Below, piece after piece: positions 32,576 through 36,282 of a stretch of DNA of 64,000 nt. This DNA comes from Herbidospora sakaeratensis. GTDB lineage: Bacteria; Actinomycetota; Actinomycetes; Streptosporangiales; Streptosporangiaceae. The DNA lies in NCBI RefSeq assembly GCF_001570525.1, contig NZ_BBXC01000007.1, positions 103,085-167,084 on the forward strand. Reading direction: 5' to 3'. The notes beneath the pieces are model-generated. The model worked only from the letters and a program-made list of their open reading frames with translations. It ran no database searches and was not told the DNA's origin. The translations under genes were made by a program, and so were the position numbers. The first letter of the stretch is position 1. Each line of letters starts with the position of its first letter.

Positions 32576-33133
32576 TCAGCGGGCGAACACCACGATGTTG
32601 TCGCGGTAGGAGCGCCGGCTGCGGTCGAACGTGCCGCCGCAGGTGATCAGCCTGAGCTGGGCGCCGCCGCCGGAGGCGTAGACCAGCTTGTTCGGGACGT
32701 TGTTCTTGGGATACCGGGCGACCCGGTAGACCGTGAAGGTCACGCTCGATCCGTCCGCGCGGTTGACGGTGATCTTGTGGCCGGCCCTCAGCTCCCGCAG
32801 CCGGTAGAAGACCGCCGGGCCCGACTTCGAGTCGACGTGCGCGGCGATGACCGCGACGCCCTTCTCACCCGGTTCCGGGCCCGACTTGTGCCAGCCCGCG
32901 ACGTCGAACCGCTTCGGGGCGATGAGCTTGCCCTTCTTGTCGAGCTTCAGCGGGATGATCGCGGAGTTGACCTTGATGGCCGGGATGCGGACCCGCGTCG
33001 GGTTCGCGACGTCCTCGCTAGCACTCACGGGGGCGACGGACGCCCGCGCCGGCGGTGCGCCCTCCCCGGCGCACGCCGCGAGCAGCAGCGCGCCGGCCAG
33101 AAAAGCTCCGGCTCTCATCGTGTACGTCTTCAC
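32576..33133 (-). CDS. class F sortase, probable lipoprotein
   Basis: A 185-residue sortase. The GTG start overlaps the stop of the repeat-protein gene (GTGA). An N-terminal hydrophobic stretch ends LLLAACAG, a good lipobox, so the enzyme may be lipid-anchored rather than held by an uncleaved helix. The catalytic set is His in VIAAHVDS, Cys in LRLITCGG and Arg in RSYRDNIVV. PTRVRIPAIKVNSAIIPL is the usual first strand region. Class F enzymes are typical of actinobacteria and their substrates are poorly known. It is the last gene of a five-gene operon. Confidence 0.9.
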   Translation of the reverse strand: MKTYTMRAGAFLAGALLLAACAGEGAPPARASVAPVSASEDVANPTRVRIPAIKVNSAIIPLKLDKKGKLIAPKRFDVAGWHKSGPEPGEKGVAVIAAHVDSKSGPAVFYRLRELRAGHKITVNRADGSSVTFTVYRVARYPKNNVPNKLVYASGGGAQLRLITCGGTFDRSRRSYRDNIVVFAR

Positions 33134-33735
33134 GACTCGGCGCCCTGACGACGCCGGGCCAGCACGATCAGACCCGTCACCGCGCCCAGGCCGGCCACCC
33201 CGGCGACGCCGAGCGGCACCCACGGGTTCGTGCCCTCCTCGGCCGAGACGAACCGCAGATCGGCCGCGCCGCCCATACCGGTGTCCACGCCCCCGCTGGG
33301 CCGGTCGTCATCGTCGTCGTCCTGCGTGCCGCCCGCGCCGGTGTCGACGCCGCCGCGCGGCCGGTCGTCATCGTCGTCGTCGGACGCGCCGCCCTTGCCC
33401 GTCTCCACGCCGCCTCGGGGGCGGTCGTCGTCGTCATCGTCGTCGTCGGAGGTGCCGCCGGCCCCGGTCTCGACGCCGCCGCGAGCGCGGTCGTCGTCGT
33501 CATCGTCATCGTCCGACGTGCCGCCCTTGCCGGTTTCCACGCCGCCTCGGGGGCGGTCGTCGTCATCGTCGCCGCCCTGGCGGTCGTCATCGTCGTCGTC
33601 GCGGGAGTCGTCGTCCGCGACCGTGGCCGTCCACGTCGGGGACGCGTGGGCGGCGGCCGGGAGGGCGGCGGTCGCGCCGCCCACCGTGGCGAAGGCGGCG
33701 AGGGCCAGGAGGGCTCGGCGTGCTTCGAGGTTCAT
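33130..33735 (-). CDS. Asp-rich repeat surface protein, putative substrate of the adjacent sortase
   Basis: A 201-residue secreted protein: signal peptide (1-31, AHA), five tandem repeats between about residues 56 and 158, a linker, a transmembrane helix (about 173-193) and the tail ARRRQGAES. Each repeat is a run of 5-8 Asp followed by R(P/A)(R/S)GGV(E/D)TGxGG. There is no LPXTG. The layout of signal peptide, C-terminal helix and positive tail is that of a sortase substrate. Its stop overlaps the sortase start, and the RR gene lies upstream by 80 bases. Confidence 0.85.
   Translation of the reverse strand: MNLEARRALLALAAFATVGGATAALPAAAHASPTWTATVADDDSRDDDDDDRQGGDDDDDRPRGGVETGKGGTSDDDDDDDDRARGGVETGAGGTSDDDDDDDDRPRGGVETGKGGASDDDDDDRPRGGVDTGAGGTQDDDDDDRPSGGVDTGMGGAADLRFVSAEEGTNPWVPLGVAGVAGLGAVTGLIVLARRRQGAES
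33262..33570 (-). repeat. five tandem repeats, poly-Asp plus GGV(E/D)TGxGG
   Basis: Five coding repeats of 60-66 bases. The GGVxTGxGG motif falls at residues 64-72, 86-94, 108-116, 128-136 and 148-156, so the period is 22, 22, 20, 20 residues. The poly-Asp part is made of alternating gac/gat codons (read as gtc/atc on the plus strand), which may be prone to slippage. Confidence 0.92.
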
Positions 33736-33814: not shown

Positions 33815-34477
33815 TTAGAGGGATCTCATGCGGTAGCCGGTGCCGCGTACCGTCTCGATGCGGTCGGAGCCGATCTTGCGGCGGAGGTAGCGCACGTAGA
33901 CGTCCACGACGTTCGAGCCCGGGTCGAAGTCGAAGCCCCAGACCTGGCTGAGCAGTTGTTCCCGCGACAGGACCTGCTCGGGATGCCGGAAGAACGCCTC
34001 GGCCAGCGCGAACTCCCGGGTCGACAGGTCGATGGAGCGTTCCCCCGCGTGGGCGCGGCGGGTGCGCAGGTCGAGGGCCAGGTCGCCGACGCGGAGCACG
34101 GTCGCCTCGGGGGCGCGTTCGCTGCGCAGCCGCAGGCGGACCCGGGCCAGCAGTTCCTCGAACGCGAACGGCTTGGCGATGTAGTCGTCGGCGCCGCCCT
34201 CCAGGCCCGCGACGGTGTCGCCGACGCTGTCGCGGGCGGTCAGGATGATCACGGGGATCTCGGCGCGGGCCGCGCGCAACCGCCGTAAGACGGTGAAGCC
34301 GTCGCTCAGCGGCAGGCCGATGTCGAGGATCATCAGGTCGTGGTTCCCGGTCCGGGCGTGCTCGTAGGCGGCCAGGCCGTCGGTCACCACCGTGGTGACG
34401 AAACCGCTGGCCCGCAGGCCCTTCTCCAGGAACGCGGCGATGCGGTCCTCGTCCTCGGCGATCAGGATGCTGTTCAC
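33815..34477 (-). CDS. OmpR/PhoB-family response regulator
   Basis: A 220-residue regulator with receiver domain ([17 protein letters not shown]; phosphoacceptor in [14 protein letters not shown]; Lys in [15 protein letters not shown]) and a C-terminal winged helix ([44 protein letters not shown]). Its ATG overlaps the kinase stop. It lies directly upstream of the repeat protein and sortase, so it may control them. Confidence 0.93.
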
Positions 34478-35868
34478 GCCATCTCCATCTTCTCCGCCAC
34501 CATCGGGAACGTCAGGACGAACTGGGCGCCCCCGCCGGGGGCGTCCATCACGAAAACGCGGCCGTCGTGCGCCTCGGCGATCGACCGCACGATCGACAGG
34601 CCCAGGCCCGAGCCCTCACCCGCGATGCGGGCGCGTTCGAACCGCTGGAAGATGCGTTCGCGGTCTTCCACCGGCACCCCCGGGCCGCTGTCGCGCACCC
34701 ACAACACGACGTGCCCGTCGCGCACCGCCGAGCCGACCGCGACGAGGTCGCCCTCCCGCGTGTGGCGCACCGCGTTTGCCGTGAGCTGCATCAACGCCTG
34801 GGTGAGCCGCTGCTGGTCGGCGACCGCGTACTCCTCGGCGACCTCGTCGACGCGCCACTTGCGGTCGGCCAGGCCGCGGGCGCGGGCCACCACGGCCACC
34901 GGGAGCTCGGCCAGCTCGACCGGCTCCAGGGTGAGGAAGTTGGGCTGGCCCGCCTTGGCGAGCGTCAGCAGGTCGTCGACCAGGCGGTTCATCCGGATCA
35001 GCTCGTCGTTGACGAGGGCCAGGGTGTCGCGCTGGTCGTGCGGGTCGTCGCCCATCAGCTCCAGGTGGCCCCGGATGACGGTGATGGGGGTGCGCAGTTC
35101 GTGGCCGGCGTCGTCGGCGAACTTGCGCTGCGCGGCGAACGCCTGGTCGAGCCGGTCGAGCATGTGGTTGAAGGTGGCCGCCAGCGCCGCCACGTCGTCG
35201 TTGCCGGTCACCTCCAGCCGCCGGGTCAGGTCGGAGCTGTCGGAGATGGCCTCGGCCGTCTGGCGCACCAGGCGGATGGGGGCCAGCACCCGTCCGGCGA
35301 CGAACCACCCGGCCGCGCCCGCGAGCGTCAGCGCCGCCAGGCCGGTGATCGCCAGGACCTGCACCGACGCCACGACCTCCTCGCGGTGGCGGTCGTAGAA
35401 GACGGCCACGACGAACTGGCCGATCGCGGGGTCGCCGGTGATCTGGACGGGGATCGCCGCGTAGCGCACCCGTCCGGCCGTGCTGTCGGTCCAGCCGGCC
35501 ACCGGCCGGTCGGTGACGCCGGCGACCTTCCGCACGAGGTCTTCATCGGCGTCGAGCGCGGCCGGGGGACGGTCGCCGCCGGGGATCGACTCGATGCGGC
35601 CGCCGACGACCGTGAAGTAGGTCTCCCACCGGTCGGGCGGGTTCACCGACAACCAGCCGTCGAGCAGCGTCTTCACGCTGGCGGGCGGGCCGCCGGCGGT
35701 CTCGTTGGCGACGTGCCGGCGCAGCTTCTCGGTCTCGTTCTCCAGTTCGGCGCTGACGCGGGCGTCCAGGCGGCTGAGCAGGATGCTCCACGTCGCCGAC
35801 AACGACACCGACAGGGCCAGCGCCACCAGGAAGAGCATCCAGCCCACGATCCGGGCACGGGCGCTCAT
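34474..35868 (-). CDS. two-component sensor histidine kinase (HisKA type)
   Basis: A 464-residue kinase. Transmembrane segment 1 is near residues 10-30 and segment 2 near 175-195, enclosing an extracytoplasmic sensor of about 145 residues. A HAMP domain follows ([17 protein letters not shown]), then HisKA with [20 protein letters not shown] and HATPase_c ([38 protein letters not shown]). It is the second gene of the sortase operon. The signal is unknown. Confidence 0.93.
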
Positions 35869-35880
35869 CGCACCCCGCGA

Positions 35881-36162
35881 TCAGTCGTCGTCACCGTCAT
35901 CGTCGTCGTCATCTCCGTCGTCGTCGTCCCCGCCCTGCTTCGGGGGTGGCGGTTTGACCGGTTCACCACGAGTCTTCTTCGCCGGGGACGTCGAGGGGCG
36001 GGGGCTGGGTTCCTTCGCGGGCGCGGACGGCTCGGCCGTGACGACGACGGGGCCGCCCAGCTGGGGGCCGTCGTCGCCGAACGCCGCGAAGACGCCGGAC
36101 ACGGCCAGCGCGGCGACCACCGCCCCGGCGATCAGCAACAGCACCGACACCCTGCGACCCAT
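35881..36162 (-). CDS. small single-pass membrane protein with acidic tail
   Basis: A 93-residue protein: MGRRVSVLLLIAGAVVAALA is a signal anchor or signal peptide, then a Pro/Ser/Lys-rich linker (EPSPRPSTSPAKKTRGEP) and a C-terminal tail of Asp and Gly only (DDDDGDDDDDDGDDD). The tail resembles the poly-Asp runs of the repeat protein three genes later. It starts the operon, 12 bases before the kinase. ATG 36162 is preferred over an ATG 20 codons upstream because the latter adds non-secretory residues. It could bind divalent cations and feed the kinase; this is a guess. Confidence 0.65.
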   Translation of the reverse strand: MGRRVSVLLLIAGAVVAALAVSGVFAAFGDDGPQLGGPVVVTAEPSAPAKEPSPRPSTSPAKKTRGEPVKPPPPKQGGDDDDGDDDDDDGDDD

Positions 36163-36282
36163 GGCCCCAGTCTCGGGCCGTTTCGGGAGAACATCATGGG
36201 AGCACGATGAGAAGACTCTCATCTTCCCCGCGCCGCCGAACCTGTAGGAAGATCACCGCAAGCTCATGGAAAGGGTTCTCTC

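Follow-up and report, generated by a model that had tools for sequence, protein, structure and literature searches.

A class F sortase of Herbidospora sakaeratensis and an overlapping secreted-type protein with five copies of the GVDTG sorting tag

Analysis of the window, i.e. the whole 64,000-nucleotide stretch under study from the genome of the soil actinomycete Herbidospora sakaeratensis, revealed a class F sortase gene overlapping the gene of a secreted-type protein with five copies of a GV(E/D)TGxGG tag, only the last of which is followed by a C-terminal helix and basic residues. The two proteins very probably constitute a cognate pair of enzyme and substrate. For the locus as a whole it is proposed, with slightly less than even confidence, that the terminal copy would be the sorting signal and that the internal copies may be kept as extra sortase sites. 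Class F sortases, which are widespread in actinobacteria and were first studied in Cutibacterium acnes, are known already, as are the GVDTG tag and its presence in one copy per substrate; the tag arrays, the distinct consensus of the internal copies and the fusions of the tag region with the sortase were not found described.

The sortase and its probable substrate

The following features have been identified in the two genes:

32576..33133, minus strand: class F sortase (NF033748; PF04203)
32837-32839 (His), 32639-32641 (Cys) and 32615-32617 (Arg), minus strand: catalytic residues of the sortase, invariant in A1
33071..33073, minus strand: Cys of the lipobox-like LAAC in the sortase N-terminal signal (sequence pattern)
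33130..33735, minus strand: substrate gene, 201 amino acids (open reading frame; NF058571 match in five stretches)
33643..33735, minus strand: apparent signal peptide MNLEARRALLALAAFATVGGATAALPAAAHA of the substrate (read from sequence)
33520..33543, minus strand: tag copy 1, GVETGKGG (pattern match and codons)
33454..33477, minus strand: tag copy 2, GVETGAGG (pattern match and codons)
33388..33411, minus strand: tag copy 3, GVETGKGG (pattern match and codons)
33328..33351, minus strand: tag copy 4, GVDTGAGG (pattern match and codons)
33268..33291, minus strand: tag copy 5 (terminal), GVDTGMGG (pattern match and codons; the NF058571 match runs on through the helix)
33157..33222, minus strand: C-terminal hydrophobic helix WVPLGVAGVAGLGAVTGLIVLA of the substrate (read from sequence)
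33133..33156, minus strand: basic tail RRRQGAES of the substrate (read from sequence)

The sortase may start at GTG 33133, giving 185 residues, or at ATG 33118, giving 180; from the GTG start the gene overlaps the substrate stop by 4 nt. It scores 187 bits against the class F family NF033748 (cut-off 166), and H94, C160 and R168, numbered from ATG 33118, are the invariant catalytic residues. A relative from Nonomuraea dietziae has a sortase fold in its AlphaFold model, for which the best Foldseek hits are all sortases; a PDB sequence search with the window sortase gave no match at E 0.01. By family score, triad and the fold of the relative, the window enzyme is a class F sortase and a predicted transpeptidase. 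The N-terminal signals of sortases in this group mostly end in a lipobox-like Cys (LAAC, TIGC, VGGC, LTGC), as seen in the window (33071-33133) and at L104-L110, L143-L153 and L160-L165, and these enzymes may therefore be lipoproteins. Sortases of the Micromonosporaceae and Geodermatophilaceae relatives mostly have no such Cys.

In the substrate the apparent signal peptide is followed by a short acidic segment, the five repeat units, the hydrophobic helix and the basic tail, in this order. Each repeat unit is an Asp run followed by R(P/A)(R/S)GGV(E/D)TGxGG, and the five tags read, with their flanks, PRGGVETGKGG, ARGGVETGAGG, PRGGVETGKGG, PRGGVDTGAGG and PSGGVDTGMGG. The peptide of the terminal type is PSGGVDTGMGGA, that of the internal type PRGGVETGKGGT. 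A preliminary description of the locus, made from the sequence, had noted that the gene overlapping that of the sortase encodes a secreted, C-terminally anchored protein lacking LPXTG, and the open reading frames agree with this; inspection of all 201 residues detected neither an LPXTG nor an LAXTG pentapeptide. Its five RxRGGV(E/D)TGxGG motifs spaced by 20-22 residues held in number and spacing (22, 22, 20 and 20 residues), but the last copy is preceded by RPS and not by RxR.

Five separate stretches of the substrate match NF058571, the NCBIfam “GVDTG sorting domain”, with a score of 72.5 bits (cut-off 29); the strongest spans residues 146-196 and model positions 2-44 of 44. In the 8.6-Mb genome the DNA pattern for GV(D/E)TGxGG has five matches, all inside this open reading frame, and the reversed control pattern has none; the five-copy array is thus not due to chance.

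Pairing of the tag with class F sortases

The tag is already a curated NCBIfam sorting domain and hence not a discovery of this work. The preliminary description had stated that short proteins beside class F sortases in Streptomyces carry a single (P)xGxVxTGxGG tag before the helix; as to the single tag this is right, since NF058571 is curated as a sorting domain, and most class F neighbours do carry one such tag. The open-licence literature that was searched yielded no paper naming the GVDTG tag and no experiment on cleavage or wall attachment at it.

The preliminary description had also read the motif as a possible sorting signal, in which case the protein would have five cleavage sites and might form chains, release short acidic pieces or be anchored at alternative lengths; this interpretation is supported in part. 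It had been made dependent on an enrichment of the motif beside class F sortases, and an enrichment was found. Across 60 related genomes the DNA pattern has 73 matches, against 9 for the reversed control. Of these 73, 42 lie no more than 3 kb from a class F sortase; they represent 14 of the 45 distinct places, compared with an expectation of 0.13 (p about 6e-25, a value that treats the places as independent, yet many are orthologous). A search of class F neighbours for the motif near C-terminal helices, also suggested at the outset, covered 80 named loci of the wider group, and most of the recognisable neighbours have one GGV(D/E/A)TGxGG before the helix.

The H. sakaeratensis genome encodes six class F sortases. 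The proteins adjoining the other five have a C-terminal helix and one tag apiece, related to a varying degree: PDGGVATGGGG twice, PQGAVDTGLGG, PDGAPQTGGGVP and APGAGGGG, the last two being weak resemblances judged by eye. At one of these places (L116 4938-7203, contig C11) two adjacent, similar secreted proteins lie between two class F sortases, each with one PDGGVATGGGG tag before its helix. Elsewhere, a GVDTG-domain match of 32.5 bits, above the cut-off, was noted with no class F sortase nearby (G018:C2:266977-267099, L025); its protein is possibly a substrate served from a distance.

Tag arrays among the relatives

An orthologue of the substrate is present in all seven Herbidospora genomes examined (that of the window and six others), with 2, 3, 3, 3, 5, 6 and 8 copies of the tag, degenerate copies included. 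Other relatives have arrays, too: 6-7 copies in Acrocarpospora, 2-7 in Nonomuraea, 3 in Thermocatellispora, 5 in Allonocardiopsis, 2-3 in Actinomadura and up to 7 in further relatives. The orthologues as a whole range from 1 to 8 copies, with single-copy orthologues in the same clade, and in most other actinobacteria a single copy precedes the helix. A supported clade of the sortase tree (97/88), mostly of Streptosporangiales, contains nearly all arrays, whereas single copies prevail almost throughout the other side. Tandem, internal or multiple LPXTG motifs were also sought in the open-licence literature, with nothing relevant found.

Internal and terminal copies

The main rival explanation concerns the internal copies. 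Only the terminal copy would be a sorting signal, and the internal ones would have arisen incidentally by unequal crossing-over, the acidic repeat being GC-rich and of low complexity, and would act at most as a flexible spacer, with a copy number drifting without effect. This reading has a substantial chance of being correct, although clearly below even. The variation in copy number even among close species of Herbidospora and the single-copy orthologues within the clade are in its favour, as is the distribution of damage: all but two of the degenerate copies are internal, and the last Gly, kept in 26 of 26 terminal copies, is found in 70 of 84 internal ones and missing from 14 (17%). Ala replaces Thr in 9 of the 84 internal copies (about 11%).

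Other features of the internal copies do not fit a drifting by-product. Between internal copies of one gene the core positions have remained fixed while synonymous sites diverged (pS 0.43, pN 0.033, ratio 0.08; 139 pairs, which are not independent and come from a motif search that conditions on part of the core). For these two reasons every unit between Asp runs was also counted, and among about 117 units only one, GSVDTGAGG of H. mongoliensis, is without GGVx(T/A)GxG. The internal copies also have a consensus of their own. The residue after TG is Met, Leu, Phe or Ile in 27 of 35 terminal copies and in 21 of 111 internal ones, counts that ignore the kinship of the sequences; Met, Leu and Phe are typical of terminal copies and Lys, Ala and Val of internal ones. 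Terminal and internal copies do not differ significantly in how often they are intact overall (23 of 26 and 60 of 84, respectively; p 0.12). In N. antri and Prauserella endophytica it is the last copy that is damaged (GGVNAGFGG, distant from the helix, and GGVEAGNGG, respectively), with Thr lost and the upstream copies intact. From these comparisons the internal copies look maintained. That they are simply decayed terminal copies was considered separately and rejected, given the non-significant difference in intactness and the internal consensus.

Fusions of the tag region with the sortase

In five species the tag region is located in one open frame with a class F sortase domain:

L155 4737-5438: Rhizohabitans arisaemae, 1 tag copy
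L112 4767-5708: G010, 3 tag copies
L224 1084-2013: G257, 3 tag copies
L159 4548-5447: Nonomuraea dietziae, 4 tag copies
L227 1417-2232: G275, 3 tag copies

The junction lies a few residues past the last tag, and the fusions possess neither the helix and tail of the substrate nor the N-terminal signal of the sortase. The fusion thus links the tag region with the enzyme, and the tags are retained though no helix stands behind them. The N. dietziae protein is above both family cut-offs and is encoded downstream of the same kinase and regulator genes as the window substrate. Three of the fusions form one clade (99/96); a single origin of all five is neither rejected (p-AU 0.28) nor shown. AlphaFold modelled the sortase domain of the N. 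dietziae fusion confidently and the tag region with a pLDDT below 57; no docking of a tag in the active site is seen.

Proposed mechanism

According to the preferred explanation, the substrate would be exported and then held by its C-terminal helix. We infer that the sortase would cut the last tag, GVDTGxGG, by analogy with LPXTG sorting probably at the Thr-Gly bond, and would join the acidic ectodomain to cell-wall material. The tag together with its acidic spacer would have been duplicated, and the internal copies may have been kept by selection as further sites of sortase recognition, allowing anchoring at alternative lengths, trimming of C-terminal units or a higher local occupancy of the enzyme. 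This explanation draws on the family matches, the enrichment of the tag, the single tags before the helix and the orthologues with 1-8 copies. The use of the internal copies is its weak step. Purifying selection, the distinct internal consensus and the fusions of the array to the enzyme argue indirectly that these copies matter, and the loss of Thr from the last copy in N. antri and P. endophytica, with upstream copies intact, is consistent with their use.

The same explanation is weakened by the absence of docking in the AlphaFold model and by the internal copies with Ala for Thr or without the last Gly. It is weakened further in that the tag in LPXTG sorting normally acts near the membrane helix. 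A bolder version, in which the internal copies would be true sortase sites yielding a ladder of wall-anchored acidic chains and released units, and in which the fusions would be self-processing sortases acting on the tags of their own chain, is considered unlikely.

Neighbouring genes and a possible acidic surface polymer

Three further genes upstream of the substrate gene were characterized:

33815..34477, minus strand: OmpR-type response regulator, conserved upstream neighbour (Pfam; synteny)
34474..35868, minus strand: histidine kinase, conserved upstream neighbour (Pfam; synteny)
35881..36222, minus strand: 113-residue protein, hydrophobic in its N-terminal part and Asp-rich at its C-terminus (open reading frame; orthologues)

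The kinase and regulator genes are also upstream in Herbidospora, Acrocarpospora, Thermocatellispora, Allonocardiopsis, Actinocorallia and part of Nonomuraea. The 113-residue protein, whose gene lies upstream of the kinase, ends in GGDDDDGDDDDDDGDDD.

A further explanation sees in the repeats an acidic polymer at the surface that would bind cations and be controlled by the adjoining two-component system, with the motif as a structural spacer and the sortase anchoring only the whole. The long Asp runs in nearly all arrays and the kinase and regulator upstream in many relatives accord with such a polymer, as does the second Asp-tailed protein, with orthologues at a kept position in Herbidospora, Acrocarpospora and two Nonomuraea loci. 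As a full account it is improbable: it leaves the fixed V and G and the mostly kept T of the internal tags unexplained, as well as the sortase fusions, and at several Nonomuraea loci no kinase-regulator pair occurs within the flanks examined. This reading is compatible with the preferred explanation and does not exclude it.

Comparison with known systems

The substrate shares with the NF058571 domain (GVDTG_CTERM) the tag, the helix and the basic tail. That model, however, describes one tag and a helix in 44 positions, whereas the substrate matches it five times, and four of these matches have no helix after them. A C-terminal signal in three parts, tag, helix and basic tail, is found likewise in the LPXTG or LAXTG substrates of class A and E sortases; the window substrate differs from them in its tag, in the five copies and in the internal copies without a helix. 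The family score, the His-Cys-Arg triad and the sortase fold place the window enzyme with the class F sortases of NF033748.

The class F sortase of C. acnes reportedly uses LPXTG (PMC13257024), in contrast to the window sortase, which adjoins a protein without LPXTG and has a lipobox-like Cys in its own N-terminus. In Actinoplanes missouriensis a quadruple knockout of class F (srtF) genes gave no phenotype in sporangium formation or the other traits examined (PMC13251363). Both reports weaken the preferred explanation. SrtF1 (AMIS_11010) and SrtF4 (AMIS_36440) of that species adjoin a secreted protein in which no pentapeptide was recognised but which ends in a helix and a basic tail; this protein, according to the authors, may be a substrate (PMC13251363). 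As far as the description in that paper goes, the likeness to the window lies in a class F sortase beside a helix-tailed secreted protein; unlike for the window substrate, no repeated tag is reported (PMC13251363).

The locus resembles class C sortases and their pilins in that a Lys of the substrate motif might in principle serve as a nucleophile. Pilus-like chains would form if the Lys after TG in internal copies (GGVETGKGG) accepted the cut terminal tag of another molecule. Lys occupies this place in 32 of 111 internal copies and 1 of 35 terminal ones, again without regard to kinship, which accounts for 33 of the 50 Lys of the repeat regions, and the only two Lys of the window substrate stand there, in tags 1 and 3. 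Nevertheless, such chains are very improbable as the general explanation, because such a Lys is absent from most Nonomuraea arrays and from one Herbidospora (G002), NCBIfam assigns the enzyme to class F and not to class C, and the substrate is acidic and apparently disordered; in some genera only, chain formation through this Lys is possible.

Significance

The physiological role of class F sortases is described as unknown (PMC13251363). The locus connects one subgroup of these enzymes with a defined non-LPXTG tag and supplies testable peptides. Together, the orthologues with 1-8 copies and the fusions provide a natural series for asking whether a sortase uses tags distant from the membrane helix. 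If it does, the usual view that a tag functions only within the C-terminal tripartite signal of tag, helix and basic tail would have to be revised, and such enzymes may provide a ligase that recognises a new sequence.
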